Below, in pieces: positions 3,093 to 8,757 of a stretch of DNA of 9,170 bases. The notes beneath the pieces are model-generated. The model did not search any database. It saw only the letters and a list, made by a program, of their open reading frames with translations, and had not been told where the DNA came from. Made by a program: the position numbers and the translations under genes. Source of the DNA: a bacterium (lineage in GTDB: Bacteria > T1Sed10-126); the NCBI GenBank assembly GCA_003554945.1, contig PWHN01000073.1:1-9170 (forward strand), in the 5' to 3' direction. Position 1 is the stretch's first letter, and every line of letters begins with the position of its first letter.

Positions 3093-3287
3093 ATGTGTTG
3101 TTGTTCAGACGTTAGAAATCTTTGCTCCTGCTCGGACGGTCAGCGAAATGTTCGCCGGCGATTTTTTACCGATGAGGAGCGGGTAGGCATGCTCGAAGAT
3201 TACATTGCCGACCTTGAGAACGAACTCAAGGCTGCCCGAGAGCGACTTGATTCACTCAAAAGTGGCGAAGACACCTGCTGCTGTTGA
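3093..3287 (+). CDS. Small Cys-rich coiled-coil protein
   Basis: A 64-residue protein of unknown function. It begins M-C-C-C-S with further Cys at 11 and 13, continues with a basic R-R-R-F-F stretch (21-25), then a predicted heptad-bearing helix (about 27-56) rich in Glu, Leu and Arg, and ends in C62-C63-C64. Eight of 64 residues are cysteine, all at the two ends of the helix. In a coiled-coil dimer both ends could form a thiolate metal site. GAGGTG at 3081-3086 lies 6 bases before ATG 3093. An upstream in-frame GTG at 3084 overlaps that site and is less likely. I recall similar short proteins (an E-E-x-x-x-x-L-E-x-Y helix preceded by cysteines) in anaerobes and archaea, without an assigned function. 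The CCC runs echo those of the PadR protein upstream, which suggests shared chemistry such as soft-metal or metalloid binding. Confidence 0.7.
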   Translation: MCCCSDVRNLCSCSDGQRNVRRRFFTDEERVGMLEDYIADLENELKAARERLDSLKSGEDTCCC

Positions 3288-3376: not shown

Positions 3377-3406
3377 GTAACACTCTTTTAAAAAATGTGT
3401 TACAAT
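3377..3406 (+). promoter_or_regulatory. Promoter with overlapping dyad for the methyltransferase-importer operon
   Basis: GTAACAC (3377-3383) and GTGTTAC (3397-3403) are perfect 7-bp inverted arms separated by 13 bases containing TTTTAAAA. The same stretch contains a plausible sigma-A promoter, GTAACA (3377-3382, four of six at -35), 18 bases, TACAAT (3401-3406, five of six at -10), about 50 bases before the methyltransferase start. One arm covers the -35 and the other touches the -10, the classic layout of a repressor operator. The arms differ from those at the PadR promoter, so a different regulator, or a second mode of PadR binding, is implied. Confidence 0.6.
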
Positions 3407-3454: not shown

Positions 3455-4531
3455 ATGAGCGGCGGGGTTAAGTTGCGCCGGGAGCTGGGAAAACGTTATC
3501 CCCGGGAGATTAGAAAGCTATGGCGGTATCCTCCGTCTGACACCGATCGATTTGATCGTTTATGCCGTAGTTACCGTGCTCTGGTCTTACTTGTTCAGGG
3601 GATAGAGACCAAATTTTTCGATTTATTGACAGAGTGGAATTCGGTCGACAAGGTGGCTTTTACACTCCAGGTTGAGCCAGCTTTAATAGAGCGCCTTTGT
3701 TACACACTAACCGAGCTTGATATTTTTATAAGTGAGGCCGAGCAGTACAAGTTATCTGATTTTGGCCGGCCCTTCCTTGCACCGGAAAATCTTTTCTACC
3801 AGGGTCATCTGCTCAAGCTCCGCAAAACCAAGCTGGAGCTTTTTAACTGCAGGTTGAAGGAGTCTTTCCAGGGGGAGCCGCCTTCCCGCGACGCCAAACC
3901 AATTTTTGAGGAGTCTTTCAACCTGGCGATGGCGGAAGCAACTCTGCGCGGTGACCTGCAGGAAACCGTGGAGCTGTTCCGCCGCGGCGACCTGCCGGCG
4001 TTAAGTGGTAGGCTTCTGGACCTCGGCGGCGGACACGGTCTTTATGCGCTTTCCTTCCTGGAGCTTTACCCTGAGCTGGAAGCAGAGGTATTGGATCATC
4101 CGGAAGTGGTTGTGAACCAGACCGCCCCGTTCCTCGACCACTTTTTGAACCCTGAGCGCATTGATACCTTTGCCGGCGACTTTACCAGTCTCTCCGTAAA
4201 AAATGAATACGACTTTGTCTTCGCTTCGAACGTCTTCTATAAACCGGAGGCTAAACTGAAAAATAGCCTGGAAAGTATCCGCCGTTGCCTGAAGCCCGGC
4301 GGCTACCTGTTAAGCAAGCACTTCCACTACGGCTCCGAGTCCCGCGGCGATCCTCACGTCCTCCTCTTTGATTTCGATCACTCGTTGAAGGGAGAGGACT
4401 ACGCCTCACGCCTGCGCAGCGGCCAGGAGTGGGAACAGCTTTTTGCGGCAAGTGGCTTTTCGGTGACCGGCAGCCACACGTATGAAAACTCCAACAAACC
4501 GTCTCGACTTACCATTGCAAAACTTGATTAG
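3455..4531 (+). CDS. SAM-dependent methyltransferase, O-methyltransferase fold, lacking the usual catalytic His-Asp
   Basis: A 358-residue two-domain methyltransferase. The N-terminal part (about 35-115) resembles the winged-helix dimerisation domain of the acetylserotonin/hydroxyneurosporene O-methyltransferase family. The C-terminal Rossmann domain has SAM motif I, L-D-L-G-G-G-H-G at 188-195, an acidic residue at the end of strand 2 (E-V-L-D-H-P), and the late R-C-L-K-P-G-G-Y-L-L motif. Where classical members have a catalytic H-D-W after S-N-V-L, this protein reads S258-N-V-F-Y-K-P, so the general base is missing. O-methylation of a phenol by the standard mechanism is therefore doubtful, and a thiol, a metal-bound or metalloid centre, or a cofactor is possible. 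AGGAGG at 3441-3446 is 8 bases before the ATG. It leads the importer operon, and its 3' end overlaps the next gene by about 50 bases. Confidence 0.85.
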   Translation: MSGGVKLRRELGKRYPREIRKLWRYPPSDTDRFDRLCRSYRALVLLVQGIETKFFDLLTEWNSVDKVAFTLQVEPALIERLCYTLTELDIFISEAEQYKLSDFGRPFLAPENLFYQGHLLKLRKTKLELFNCRLKESFQGEPPSRDAKPIFEESFNLAMAEATLRGDLQETVELFRRGDLPALSGRLLDLGGGHGLYALSFLELYPELEAEVLDHPEVVVNQTAPFLDHFLNPERIDTFAGDFTSLSVKNEYDFVFASNVFYKPEAKLKNSLESIRRCLKPGGYLLSKHFHYGSESRGDPHVLLFDFDHSLKGEDYASRLRSGQEWEQLFAASGFSVTGSHTYENSNKPSRLTIAKLD

Positions 4532-5660
4532 GTCCGACCAGAAAAGTTTTCCTTTCTCTGAGGAAAAGAAGCTCAGGGGGAAGGAGAGAGCATCAGACTT
4601 CGGGAAGGGTTTAATTAACCTGTCGGTATTTGTGTTGGCCTTAATTTTGATAGTTTCCCCAGTCTCTGCCGGTCAAATGGTTGAGGACATGGCAGGTCGG
4701 GAAGTGAAAATACCTAATCAACCTGAACGGTTGCTTGCCCTTGGGCCTGGGATGGTGCGAAAGCTGGCTTATTTTGATGCAGTTGACCGGTTGGTTGGCG
4801 TGGAAGAAATAGAACGGGAGTCGGATAAATATCGTCAGCCCTATCAATTAGCCAACCCGGAATTACGCCGAAAACCTCCGGCGGGTCCGGCGCAAGGGGG
4901 AGATCTGGAGCTGATAGCGTCCCGCGATCCTGACCTAATTTTATATTCCGGTGATTGTGATGAGGTGCGGCGTCTTCAGGAACGGCTTGAGATTCCCGTT
5001 CTGGTTTTTAAATTTACAGACCTGGCTGAAAAACGAGATCAGCTCCGTCGGACACTGCGTTTGCTGGGAGAAGTGCTGGACAAAGAGAACCGGGCTACGG
5101 ACATAATTGAATTTATAGAGACTTCAGTTGAGGAACTTGAAAGTTTAGCCGCCGAAGTCGCCGGCGAGGCACCAAAAATATTTATTGGTGGCACTTCTTA
5201 CCGCGGCGCTCACGGTCTGGCTGCTGCCCGGGTGCCCTGTCCACTGGCTGAATTTGTGGGCGGGCGGGACGTGGTTCAAGAAAATTTTTCTAACGTCCGG
5301 TTGGGTCACGTTGAGTTCAGTCGGGAGTTTTTACTCAGTGCCGATCCCGAGTACATTTTTCTTGATCTGCTTAACCTTGATTTAATCAAAGAAGACTTGC
5401 GGCGCCATCCTACCTATTTACAACTATCCGCTTTCCGGGAGGGGAAAACCTTCGGTCTTCATCCACACGCCTCCTATCACGTTAATTTTGAAACGGTGTT
5501 GATCAACTCCTATTACGTCGCCTCAGTCCTTTATCCGGAGAAACTTGATCGCGAGTCGTTTCTGGAACGAGCTGACGAAGTGTATGAAAAGTTTCACGAC
5601 AAAAATCTCTACGAAAAGATGGCAGAAATTTATGGCAGCTATGGAGAGCTTGAATTTTGA
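4482..5660 (+). CDS. FecB/BtuF-type periplasmic substrate-binding protein
   Basis: A class III (helical-backbone) binding protein of the Peripla_BP_2 family, the capture subunit for iron-siderophore, haem or cobalamin-type importers. The conserved start of the domain, D-M-A-G-R-E-V-K-I-P-x-x-P-E-R, follows the export signal. Later landmarks are D-P-D-L-I-L-Y-S-G, G-G-T-S-Y-R-G-A-H-G, D-P-E-Y-I-F-L-D and a Tyr-rich C-terminal helix (S-Y-Y-V-A-S-V-L-Y-P). These resemble a subfamily of anaerobes and methanogens whose ligand I do not know. The signal core is residues 44-63 (cleavage V-S-A/G), with no lipobox. The start is uncertain: ATG 4482 has no good ribosome-binding site, lies inside the methyltransferase gene and leaves an odd ~43-residue charged segment before the signal core. 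AGGAGAG near 4580 hints at a non-standard start nearer 4610-4622. The last codon overlaps the permease start. Confidence 0.9.
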   Translation: MKTPTNRLDLPLQNLIRSDQKSFPFSEEKKLRGKERASDFGKGLINLSVFVLALILIVSPVSAGQMVEDMAGREVKIPNQPERLLALGPGMVRKLAYFDAVDRLVGVEEIERESDKYRQPYQLANPELRRKPPAGPAQGGDLELIASRDPDLILYSGDCDEVRRLQERLEIPVLVFKFTDLAEKRDQLRRTLRLLGEVLDKENRATDIIEFIETSVEELESLAAEVAGEAPKIFIGGTSYRGAHGLAAARVPCPLAEFVGGRDVVQENFSNVRLGHVEFSREFLLSADPEYIFLDLLNLDLIKEDLRRHPTYLQLSAFREGKTFGLHPHASYHVNFETVLINSYYVASVLYPEKLDRESFLERADEVYEKFHDKNLYEKMAEIYGSYGELEF

Positions 5661-6712
5661 AAACGGAAACAGCTAAAGCAGAAGCGGTTCAGCAGTGTCT
5701 GGATCACTACGAGCAAAACAGTCGTGGGCGAGTAGTCTGGCTGTTTGTCTGTTGCATCTTGCTTTTGTTGCTTGTAGTATTGGCTCTGCTTGTCGGAGCT
5801 TCGGGGTTAACACCTGGTCAGGCTCTGGCTGGCCTGGCCGGCAACGGTTCGGCCACCGCTGTGACTATTGTCCGCCAGATTCGCTTGCCTCGAGTTCTTG
5901 TAGCGCTGCTGGCCGGTGGTGGACTTGCCGTTGCCGGTTCGGTAATGCAGTGTATACTAAAGAATCCGCTCGGCTCTCCTTTCACTCTTGGCGTGGCCCA
6001 GGCGGCAGCCTTTGGGTCGGCCTTTTCGATTGTCATGCTGCCCGGCAACGAGTTTTATACGCTGACGACGGCTGCCTTTACAAGCGCGCTTCTGGCTGCC
6101 CTGTTACTACTGGGCCTGGTCAGGTATCGGGGCATAACACCGGCAACCATGATTTTAACGGGCGTGGCTCTGGGCTCGCTTTTCACTGCCGGCACTACAG
6201 CGCTCCAGTATTTTGCCGATGACGTTGAGCTGGCTGCGATAGTTTTCTGGACCTTTGGTGACCTCTCCCGGGCGACCTGGACGGAAATTGCGATTATGGT
6301 CCTGACCTTTTTTCCCTTGCTGGGCTATTTTTTGTATCACTCCTGGGATTATTCGCTCCTTGGCGCCGGCGAAAACTCCGCCCTGAGCCTGGGAGTTCCA
6401 GTTGAACGTCTGCGTGTTGGCGGCCTGCTTGCCGCAGCGCTGCTTACCTCGGTTATTATTTCTTTTGTCGGCGTGATTGGATTTGTTGGCCTGGTTGCTC
6501 CGCACATAAGTCGACTACTGCTTGGTACCGGCGAACGCGGCGTGTTTCTCTTCTCCGTCCCTGTAGGTGCTCTGCTGCTTCTGGCTGCCGACACGGCGGC
6601 CCGCACTCTTTTTGCGCCTATTGTTCTCCCCGTCGGTATTTTAACTTCATTTTTAGGAGCGCCCCTCTTCCTCTATCTTGTTCTTCGCCGGCGGGGTTAT
6701 CGATGGGGTTAA
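5657..6712 (+). CDS. FecCD/BtuC-type ABC importer permease
   Basis: A 351-residue membrane subunit, the usual length for this family, expected to span the membrane about ten times and work as a homodimer. Family landmarks are R76-L-P-R-V-L, N103-P-L-G-S-P followed by G-V-A-Q-A-A-A-F-G, the cytoplasmic coupling segment around 238-253 (A-L-S-L-G-V-P), G-F-V-G-L-V-A-P-H-I-S-R at 275-286, and the closing D-T-A-A-R-T ... P-V-G-I-L-T-S-F-L-G-A-P-L-F segment. The start is a TTG at 5657 that overlaps the TGA of the binding protein (TTGA), with GGAGAG at 5643-5648 placed 8 bases upstream, so translation is coupled. The first ~25 residues are a soluble charged leader before the first membrane helix. 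Its 3' end overlaps the ATPase gene by 10 bases. Confidence 0.95.
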   Translation: MKTETAKAEAVQQCLDHYEQNSRGRVVWLFVCCILLLLLVVLALLVGASGLTPGQALAGLAGNGSATAVTIVRQIRLPRVLVALLAGGGLAVAGSVMQCILKNPLGSPFTLGVAQAAAFGSAFSIVMLPGNEFYTLTTAAFTSALLAALLLLGLVRYRGITPATMILTGVALGSLFTAGTTALQYFADDVELAAIVFWTFGDLSRATWTEIAIMVLTFFPLLGYFLYHSWDYSLLGAGENSALSLGVPVERLRVGGLLAAALLTSVIISFVGVIGFVGLVAPHISRLLLGTGERGVFLFSVPVGALLLLAADTAARTLFAPIVLPVGILTSFLGAPLFLYLVLRRRGYRWG

Positions 6713-7467
6713 AAATAAAGGAACTTAATTTTGCTTACGGTAAACATCCGGTTCTTGATAATATTTCCCTGGAAATTTCGGGCGGTGAAGTGGTGGCACT
6801 TCTTGGTCCCAATGGTTCGGGCAAGACAACCCTGCTCGAGTCTCTCGCCGGGATATTGACTCCTGAAGCTGAAAAATTACAGCTGGCCGGGGAGAGTTTG
6901 CAGGCCCTGGAGCGGGCGGAGCGAGCCCGCCAGGTTGCTCTTGTGCCTCAGAAAGAGCGACGACCTTTTGAAACAACTGTATTTGATTTTGTTCTCGACG
7001 GACGGCGCCCGCTCTCCGGCTGGCGTCCATCTGCAGGTGATCGGGAGAAGACGGCCCGGACGCTCGGCGAGCTTCAACTGACCGACCTGGCGGGGCGGCT
7101 TTATCACGAGTTAAGCGGCGGTCAACAGCAGAAAGTTCTGCTTGCGCGGGCGCTGGTTCAAAAACCGGATCTCCTTCTGCTGGATGAACCCACTGCCAAC
7201 CTGGACCTCAAGCATCAGATGGAAGTTATGGAAACCGTTCGAGCCCGGTCCGGGAAGGATCGAATTGTGCTTGCGGCAATGCACGAGTTAACACTTGCCG
7301 GCCGCTACTGCGACAAATTTATTCTTCTGAACAACGGGGCTGTTCATTCGGTAGGCGGTCCGGAGGTTATTACTCCCGATTCAGTTGCTGCTGTTTACGG
7401 CGTCGAGGCCGAGGTCACTGAACAGCCGGACGGCGGTCCCCGGGTTGAGCCAACCCGTCCGCTGTGA
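6703..7467 (+). CDS. FecE/BtuD-type ABC importer ATPase
   Basis: A 254-residue nucleotide-binding subunit with all ATPase motifs intact: A-loop Tyr12, Walker A G35-P-N-G-S-G-K-T-T43, Q-loop Gln83, signature L137-S-G-G-Q-Q-Q, Walker B L157-L-L-L-D-E-P-T with catalytic Glu162, D-loop N-L-D at 166-168, and H-loop His194 in A-M-H-E. The E-L-x-x-A-G-R-Y-C-D-K stretch after the H-loop is typical of FecE/BtuD rather than exporter ATPases. It should dimerise under the permease and drive import. It starts inside the permease gene (10-base overlap) and closes the operon. The C-terminus ends in a short Pro/Gly-rich tail. The stop lies only 7 bases from the convergent gene's stop, and no terminator hairpin is evident between them. 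Confidence 0.95.
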   Translation: MGLKIKELNFAYGKHPVLDNISLEISGGEVVALLGPNGSGKTTLLESLAGILTPEAEKLQLAGESLQALERAERARQVALVPQKERRPFETTVFDFVLDGRRPLSGWRPSAGDREKTARTLGELQLTDLAGRLYHELSGGQQQKVLLARALVQKPDLLLLDEPTANLDLKHQMEVMETVRARSGKDRIVLAAMHELTLAGRYCDKFILLNNGAVHSVGGPEVITPDSVAAVYGVEAEVTEQPDGGPRVEPTRPL

Positions 7468-7474
7468 GCGTGTT

Positions 7475-8005
7475 TTATGCTTTTGTCGACTGAAGAGATT
7501 GGTAAAGCAGATAGAAATAGTTAAAACCTAAAGCAACGGCTATTGTGGCTATTAGAGCAAAAGAAATTCTTATTCCAACTATCTGTGGACTAAAGACAGC
7601 CAAGCCGGCAAAAATTTGCGGTATTTCGACCAGGGTGGCGGCAATAAGCATCGCTATCAGCGGCGGCAGTCCCATACCGTTGGAATGGAAGCTTTTGATT
7701 ATCGGGTAAGCGATAAAGGGGCAGGGGGGAAGAATACTCCCGACAGCCGAAGAAAAAAATATTGAGCGTTTGTTATTTCGATTAAGCAGGTGTGTTAAGA
7801 CCTGTTTTTGGACTAAAAGCTGGATAGTACCACCAATAAATACTGCGCCGAGTATCGGTATAAAAAGGCCCTGGATTTCGTTCCAGCCCTGAAGCAGGGC
7901 GCTGTAGGCTCTGTCGGGCGAAACAAGCCAGAGAACGAAATAGAGCAGAAACGCTATGATGAGCATAAAACACTCTTCCAGTTTAAAGGCTAAAAAATCC
8001 TTCAT
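7475..8005 (-). CDS. Half-size permease subunit B (COG0701/ArsP-like)
   Basis: A 176-residue integral membrane protein with about five hydrophobic helices (roughly 12-30, 47-66, 83-105, 114-138 and 145-168). The central hallmark is L92-P-P-C-P-F-I-A-Y-P-I-I103, shared with its upstream neighbour. This fits one repeat of the COG0701 (DUF318/YraQ/ArsP) permeases, whose full-length members have two repeats in 300-350 residues and a cysteine motif in the corresponding helix. ArsP members export trivalent organoarsenicals, but most of the family has no known substrate. GGAGG (complement of 8016-8020) lies 10 bases before the ATG, and the gene starts 20 bases after the stop of the partner permease, so the two are co-transcribed. 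It is probably one subunit of a heteromeric permease. The family call is from motif resemblance and is less certain than the membrane topology. Confidence 0.75.
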   Translation of the reverse strand: MKDFLAFKLEECFMLIIAFLLYFVLWLVSPDRAYSALLQGWNEIQGLFIPILGAVFIGGTIQLLVQKQVLTHLLNRNNKRSIFFSSAVGSILPPCPFIAYPIIKSFHSNGMGLPPLIAMLIAATLVEIPQIFAGLAVFSPQIVGIRISFALIATIAVALGFNYFYLLYQSLQSTKA

Positions 8006-8025
8006 TAATAAATTACCTCCAGTTT

Positions 8026-8694
8026 TTAAAGACTAATTCCGCTGAAATAGACTGCGAAAGAGGCCAGGGATGCGCCTGTAAAAGCCAGGCCAACTCGAAG
8101 AGACATTATTTTGCCGTCAAAGTGGATTAGGTCGCCGGAGAGGTTGCAGGCAAAGACGAGACCTGAACTGAAGAGCATTGCCATCCCCCCGGAGAAGCTG
8201 GCCCCGCTACTGTATAAAGCAGCTATAATTGGATAACTAACAAAAGGACAGGCGGGCAGAAAAGCCCCAATCCCCAGGCCGGCAAACACTGCTGTGATTC
8301 CCGCCTGCTGACCCAGCAGTTCACCAACCAGCTCTTCGGGTAGCAACTCCACTGTTGCCCCAGCTATCAATAAGGCACCAATTACGTTTAAAACGTTGCT
8401 TTTGATGGAGCTTAAGGCAACTTTAGCACTGGTTTTGGCTTTACGGGCCGAAGTAAAATAGAGGAAAAAATAAACTGAAAAAGTCGCTACCAGCAACACG
8501 TGAACAACAGGGTTTTTCCCAAAAAACCGGGCGTAGTTCCCCAGGAAGGGAAGACCTCGAAAGGGAAACAGAACGAGCCAGCTGAGGAAAACAAAGAGTG
8601 TAATGGTGCCCGCCGTTATTAGTAGCCCGAGGGTGGGGGATTTATTTTGTGCTTTTCCGGTTGAGACCTCACCGTTGTCTACGTGCTTGTTCAT
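8026..8694 (-). CDS. Half-size permease subunit A (COG0701/ArsP-like)
   Basis: A 222-residue membrane protein: a hydrophilic N-terminus (1-20), helices at about 21-44 and 62-81, a basic loop (82-99, A-R-K-A-K), then a C-terminal half that parallels the partner protein (helices near 100-118, 132-156, 165-185 and 198-220). The shared motif is F145-L-P-A-C-P-F-V-S-Y-P-I-I157, with Cys149. The extra N-terminal helices make it about one and a half times the partner's size. ATG 8694 is preferred because GGGG (complement of 8702-8705) sits 7 bases upstream. A GTG at 8733 would add 13 residues but has only a weak site. It leads the two-gene minus-strand operon, and a small dyad lies upstream at 8758-8773. 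A substrate cannot be assigned. An organometalloid, metal or thiol compound would suit the neighbouring genes. Confidence 0.75.
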   Translation of the reverse strand: MNKHVDNGEVSTGKAQNKSPTLGLLITAGTITLFVFLSWLVLFPFRGLPFLGNYARFFGKNPVVHVLLVATFSVYFFLYFTSARKAKTSAKVALSSIKSNVLNVIGALLIAGATVELLPEELVGELLGQQAGITAVFAGLGIGAFLPACPFVSYPIIAALYSSGASFSGGMAMLFSSGLVFACNLSGDLIHFDGKIMSLRVGLAFTGASLASFAVYFSGISL

Positions 8695-8757
8695 AAATTT
8701 ACCCCAAAAAAGATGATACGCATAAATAGACACCTCAAATCAGACGCCAGAATTCTT

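Follow-up and report, generated by a model that had tools for sequence, protein, structure and literature searches.

A FecBCD-type importer operon with a built-in methyltransferase-fold enzyme lacking the catalytic histidine and a predicted NikR operator

The window analysed here is an entire contig record (PWHN01000073.1, 9,170 bases) from the 2.2 Mb genome of a bacterium belonging to a sparsely sampled group, and it contains an operon of four genes on the forward strand. The first codes for a methyltransferase-fold protein (MT; 3455–4531) of the Methyltransf_2 family (PF00891) and is followed by genes for a substrate-binding protein (SBP; 4482–5660) of the Peripla_BP_2 family and the TM0189 (2etv) subfamily, a FecCD-type permease with a TTG start (5657–6712), and an ATP-binding cassette (ABC) ATPase of the FecE/BtuD type (6703–7467). 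These assignments derive from Pfam (Methyltransf_2, 49.2 bits, with a gathering threshold of 22.3; Peripla_BP_2, 75; FecCD, 282; ABC_tran, 119), complemented by an alignment and a structural model for MT and by the nearest solved structure for the SBP. As described in the initial annotation, which had called this set a methyltransferase joined to a FecBCD importer, the four open reading frames leave no intergenic space, each overlapping the next: by 50 bases for MT and SBP, by 4 for SBP and permease and by 10 for permease and ATPase. The first of these overlaps is the least certain, because the SBP gene offers just one usable start codon in frame and the overlap depends on it. About 43 residues precede the signal-like helix of the SBP (4482–4620) and no usable in-frame start occurs later, so that the start or the sequence may be in doubt here. 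The presence of a Peripla_BP_2 SBP, a FecCD permease and an ABC ATPase in one operon identifies an importer of the FecBCD/BtuFCD type. Family searches of the genome retrieved no second PF01497 protein and no second PF00891 protein; the operon thus holds the sole Fec/Btu-type importer of this genome and the sole enzyme of the MT family.

The intergenic region preceding MT contains a single perfect 7+7 inverted repeat, GTAACAC-N13-GTGTTAC (3377–3403, without strand), situated 51 bases upstream of the MT start codon. This repeat overlaps a promoter-like sequence on the forward strand (3377–3406; −35 GTAACA, extended −10 TACAAT), which has 9 of 12 matches to the consensus, was recognised by consensus only, and is the sole such pair detected in that region. 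The NikR signal of the delta-proteobacteria is GTGTTAC-N13/14-GTAACAC, although the reversed form, GTAACAC-N13-GTGTTAC, precedes nikMLKQO of Desulfotalea psychrophila and, with mismatches, nikK of D. vulgaris (PMC545781, Table 4). The motif scan showed that the repeat in the window agrees with this reversed form in all 14 positions and has the same N13 spacer. With up to two mismatches allowed, 0.01 sites would be expected in the window, and the site observed has none; it is also the only perfect site in the whole genome (spacers of 11 to 15), and none of 4000 promoters randomised by a first-order Markov model produced a site of at least 13/14. It should be noted that the palindrome was spotted first and matched to NikR afterwards, and that ten other motif forms were also tried, none of which matched. 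Boxes for Fur, Zur, DtxR, MntR, PerR, ModE, ArsR, LexA and FNR in the promoter did not beat shuffled sequences. The genome encodes one NikR, beside hypE (PF08753, 1.3e-32; NF003381, 191 bits, with a cut-off of 105), which scores 151 bits with NikR from P. horikoshii and retains the nickel-site histidines and cysteine; judged by its sequence, it is a genuine NikR. The predicted operator, taken together with this gene, makes it very probable that the operon is under NikR control.

Corrinoids, haem and metalloids had been put forward earlier as possible cargo; however, a perfect NikR-type operator points to nickel, and these other readings have less support. Fec-type nickel import under NikR is moreover known from NiuBDE, a FecBDE-type system of Helicobacter pylori that possibly takes up nickel as an organic complex (PMC5140060), and this precedent and the perfect operator together favour nickel, complexed with a ligand, as the probable cargo. 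Alternatively, the operon could encode an ordinary importer of ferric siderophores or haem; MT would then adjoin it by accident or as a separate gene, and the palindrome would not be a NikR site. Most Fec-type importers are related to iron and the solved structure nearest to the SBP, 2etv, is labelled, putatively, as iron binding; against this, the best Fur-type box in the promoter matches at just 9 of 18 positions (p = 0.94), the NikR match is perfect and unique in the genome, and the operon is conserved across domains, as described below. We therefore give this iron reading a poor chance.

The MT protein retains an intact S-adenosylmethionine (SAM) motif, DLGGGHG, and in an alignment with human ASMT (4a6d) its residues V260-F261-Y262 lie opposite V-L-H of the VLHDW motif, so that Tyr262 takes the place of the catalytic histidine. 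In a wider alignment, His289 occupies the column that holds Asp in six of nine outgroup relatives. MT consequently departs from the His/Asp-dependent O-methyltransferases of the plant/ASMT type at both positions, with Tyr262 at that of the histidine and His289 at that of the acid, and the reported combination of an O-methyltransferase fold, an intact SAM site and a lost catalytic pair holds. The motif expected in the initial annotation, S-N-V-L-H-D-W, nevertheless has to be corrected: the loss of the histidine stands, but judging from the relatives this is the animal and plant version of the motif, since bacterial relatives mostly retain the histidine (SNILH) without HDW. The annotation had also named, as an observation that would speak against it, a histidine from elsewhere in the protein occupying the catalytic site. 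This is half borne out by His289, at the position of the partner residue, but the importer-linked relatives carry Gln there in 29 of 34 cases, and it is not a conserved base.

According to the structural model, which is of medium quality (pLDDT 64), MT consists of a dimerisation domain and a Rossmann SAM fold, as do members of Methyltransf_2, with which Foldseek returned E values from 1e-16 to 1e-14; the N-terminal dimerisation domain scored 18.8 of the 25.6 bits needed and remains under the Pfam cut-off. The best structural matches were DsyB, DnrK, BchU and RosA. These enzymes include examples of N, S or C methylation, or of O methylation without a histidine base, and a missing histidine alone thus tells little about the substrate of MT. 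This weakens the earlier proposal that a mechanism without this base implies a soft thiolate, a metalloid or a metal centre.

Relatives of MT were sought in genome contigs. A scan with one sequence found nothing, whereas a profile made from two (MT from the window and a bacterial homologue at locus L039, genome G113) reached an archaeal clade, with matches in Methanosarcinales, ANME-1 and Methanococci. In a sample of 346 archaeal genomes taken around the Methanococci match, 30 contained clade members at E < 1e-45; up to 11 clade paralogues occur in a single genome, as in ANME-1 GoMg1, with 11 matches at E < 1e-10. Only the genome of the window and G113 were far above background among 386 bacterial genomes, and their scores are inflated because both sequences built the profile. 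Genus mates of G113 lack the gene, which suggests horizontal transfer; in G113 the His-less MT stands alone (L039:7336–8430), near genes resembling CRISPR-associated ones, and the SBP operon is elsewhere.

Most of the archaeal loci are arranged as SBP-MT-permease-ATPase. Among 42 loci, an SBP-type gene lies no more than six genes away from MT in 32 (a count in which NikA-type SBPs are grouped together with the others), and a FecCD permease is present in 20. There is thus an established operon, found in both domains, that combines a Fec-type importer with a His-less enzyme of the methyltransferase fold. Nine bacterial relatives of the SBP were collected, and none of them has an MT of the clade beside it. 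At four archaeal loci (L129, L143, L148 and L160) MT adjoins a small cupin-like protein, about 115 residues long.

A check proposed in the initial annotation, whether the homologues linked to the importer are those that have lost the His-Asp pair, came out in its favour: S-x3-H is kept in none of the 40 importer-linked clade rows (34 Fec-linked and 6 Nik/Dpp-linked), compared with seven of nine outgroup homologues and three unlinked archaeal rows, and the sampled loci showed no homologue with an intact pair at this place of the operon. In two paralogues from L153/L154 the loop is shorter, and a histidine follows it that the gapped alignment puts in the column of Tyr262. The replacements are themselves conserved among the Fec-linked rows, with Tyr262 in 28 of 34, Lys288 in 32 and Gln289 in 29 (His in four, including the window). 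A tree obtained by a quick method, with an outgroup that is not a clean clade, splits the rows of the His-less set from almost all those that bear the histidine (SH-aLRT 97); MT from the window is on a long branch close to the unlinked archaeal copy L129. The loss of the histidine is common to a whole clade and not an isolated mutation. It goes together with importer linkage, but probably reflects one or a few old events, and the rows should not be read as independent trials.

The same data bear on whether MT is still a methyltransferase, or has become a regulatory or chaperone subunit that binds SAM, or an enzyme transferring another part of SAM. The classical catalytic pair is lost entirely and loop lengths are variable, as would be expected in that case; conversely, the SAM motif is strictly kept, and the conservation of Tyr262 and Lys288 agrees with selection for a new active site, making the loss of methyltransferase activity quite improbable.

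The leading idea of the initial annotation was that MT methylates an imported compound, or a carrier that is taken back up. We hold a more specific form of it to be slightly more likely than not: the operon would code for a nickel-complex importer under repression by NikR, together with a cytosolic SAM enzyme dedicated to the organic ligand. When nickel is plentiful, Ni-NikR would bind the palindrome over the promoter and turn the operon off; when it is scarce, the SBP would bind the nickel complex, which the FecCD permease and the ATPase would import. MT would then methylate the ligand, in our preferred order once the complex is inside the cell, and at a donor atom whose proton the metal has already displaced. 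No histidine base would be required in this case and methylation would let the metal go; as a speculation, a thiolate, imidazole, amide or phenolate bound to the metal could be deprotonated in this way, making the base unnecessary. The parts of this proposal differ in strength. MT and SBP genes are amplified together, gene order is conserved and no other gene is a constant partner, which suggests that MT acts on the imported ligand, a point on which we find the balance even, whereas a release of the metal through methylation is doubtful. Tandem arrays of MT and SBP genes occur in L153 (four MT and four SBP), L154 (three and four) and L141 (two and five), as if several ligands were being distinguished.

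Synthesis of the ligand by MT before export is nearly as possible, and the order of events tilts towards action after import because no exporter or other biosynthetic gene is present. In a purely biosynthetic role, MT would finish a methylated nickel chelator that is exported, loaded with nickel and re-imported, as in the staphylopine and pseudopaline systems. MT is indeed the first gene behind the operator and is amplified together with the SBP gene, and ANME-1 copies of MT are found in importer clusters of the NikA/Dpp type, the SBP of which scores 206 bits, under the cut-off, with the model for the staphylopine-binding CntA. However, neither the operon nor the core conserved in archaea includes an exporter or a second biosynthetic gene, and the annotated open reading frames of the window include no CntL-like enzyme, opine dehydrogenase or exporter of the Cnt type; we consider this role unlikely.

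Several observations weigh against the import of a nickel complex with a dedicated enzyme. Some genomes, such as G250, carry the SBP operon without MT, and at L039 MT sits away from the importer, which indicates that MT is not indispensable. The archaeal operons show no clear NikR site when scanned with the bacterial consensus, the weak 12/14 sites at L137 and L027 are at chance level for the amount of sequence scanned, and the sampled methanogens encode NikR anyway, so its presence there is unspecific. In addition, the occurrence of CobS beside MT at L078/L128 and of nitrogenase-like genes at L076 would also suit a tetrapyrrole.

This last possibility would make the operon an importer of a corrinoid or a nickel tetrapyrrole (F430-type) with a tetrapyrrole-modifying methyltransferase. 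The model best matching the permease is that of BtuC, at 218 bits, but below the equivalog cut-off of 334, and the structural neighbour BchU is a bacteriochlorophyllide methyltransferase. At L074, MT adjoins cfbE and cfbD (NCBIfam equivalogs) for the synthesis of F430, a nickel cofactor, and CobS and the nitrogenase-like genes point the same way. On the other hand, the promoter has a NikR-type operator and no cobalamin riboswitch (no Rfam match was found in the window), so that neither feature of a BtuCD vitamin B12 importer, the BtuC equivalog or the riboswitch, is in place; tetrapyrrole genes are not adjacent in most archaeal loci, and the genome of the window has no PF00148 protein and therefore no CfbD-type cyclase. 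On balance a tetrapyrrole cargo is improbable. The same absence of PF00148 led us to reject a nitrogenase-like partner for the window, an idea taken from L076.

Other loci argue for a nickel theme. At L032, from bacterium G111 (L032:3329–7436), a TonB receptor is followed by a class I methyltransferase of the Methyltransf_25/31 type and an SBP of the same TM0189 subfamily, and two 13/14 NikR-like sites in opposite orientations, 75 bases apart, lie immediately upstream of the receptor gene. This appears to be an independent nickel-type operon coupling a SAM enzyme of another family with a TM0189-type SBP, and supports the import of a nickel complex by the operon of the window. Archaeal MT genes have among their neighbours NikA-like SBPs with Dpp/Nik permeases, and CbiA/MinD-type ATPases, which we take to resemble the nickel-insertion ATPase CooC, although no CooC model matched them. 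They also include DUF364 (“heavy-metal chelation”), FmdE (PF02663), one solved structure of which contained mixed Zn/Ni (PMC2954224), and, at L074, the cfbE and cfbD genes of the nickel cofactor F430 already mentioned. Several MT paralogues lie beside NikA/Dpp importers in the ANME-1 type loci L074, L075 and L148–L152. FmdE is also encoded immediately upstream of the same SBP family in a bacterium (L027:2300–4562) and an archaeon (L137:4793–6562), the weak NikR-like sites mentioned above lying one upstream of each operon.

Downstream of the operon, and convergent to it, two adjacent genes on the reverse strand (7475–8733) code for half-length ArsP_1-like permeases. Their proximity, and an ArsP_1-like half permease adjoining a distant MT homologue at L052, could suggest detoxification of a metalloid or thiol with export of the product; but the half permeases are on the opposite strand and outside the operon, an importer works in the wrong direction, and the promoter lacks an ArsR-type box, all of which makes this explanation very improbable. 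Upstream, between a PadR gene and the operon, is a gene for a 64-residue protein without a family match (3093–3287), with Cys-rich ends (an MCCCS...CTCCC-like pattern) and a coiled-coil middle. Further upstream (232–2354), a sigma factor, a zf-HC2 anti-sigma-like protein and two Spy/CpxP-like periplasmic proteins are encoded in series, resembling an envelope-stress type cassette.

If a SAM enzyme is indeed built into a FecBCD-type operon that is common in Methanococci and, in a bacterium, lies behind a predicted NikR operator, this would be a fourth route for nickel and would predict a nickel-binding small molecule not yet known. The prediction is concrete, since it involves a single operator, a single binding protein and a single enzyme. 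In its broadest form, a nickelophore route not recognised before would be common to anaerobic bacteria and methanogens, in which a base-free SAM methyltransferase caps the metal-activated donor of the ligand and frees nickel in the cytosol; we regard this form as rather unlikely. If true, the diversified SBP and MT sets of some methanogens would read several ligands. Literature searches found no paper for locus tags of the MJ0085–MJ0089 type and none on the pairing of MT with the importer.

Compared with known systems, the operon combines features otherwise found apart. With the O-methyltransferases of Methyltransf_2 (ASMT, DnrK, DsyB and BchU), MT shares the fold, the dimerisation domain and the SAM motif, but it has Tyr262 where these have His and His/Gln289 where they have Asp/Glu, as well as a conserved Lys288 and linkage to an importer. 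The Cnt/Zrp opine-metallophore systems (staphylopine, pseudopaline) likewise encode a SAM-using enzyme together with an importer of the metal-chelate type; CntL, however, is a nicotianamine-synthase-like aminobutanoyl transferase, the Cnt importer is of the Opp/Nik type, and an opine dehydrogenase and an exporter complete the system. NiuBDE of Helicobacter (CeuE/FecDE) resembles the operon in its FecB/FecCD/FecE-type importer and in NikR control, predicted for the window, but has no methyltransferase, and its SBP is from another subfamily than that of the window, which is nearest to TM0189 (2etv). Finally, the NikMNQO/NikKMLQO systems of the delta-proteobacteria are ECF-type transporters, without such an SBP and without a methyltransferase, whereas they share with the operon the operator GTAACAC-N13-GTGTTAC, present in D. 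psychrophila and as a near copy before nikK in D. vulgaris (PMC545781).

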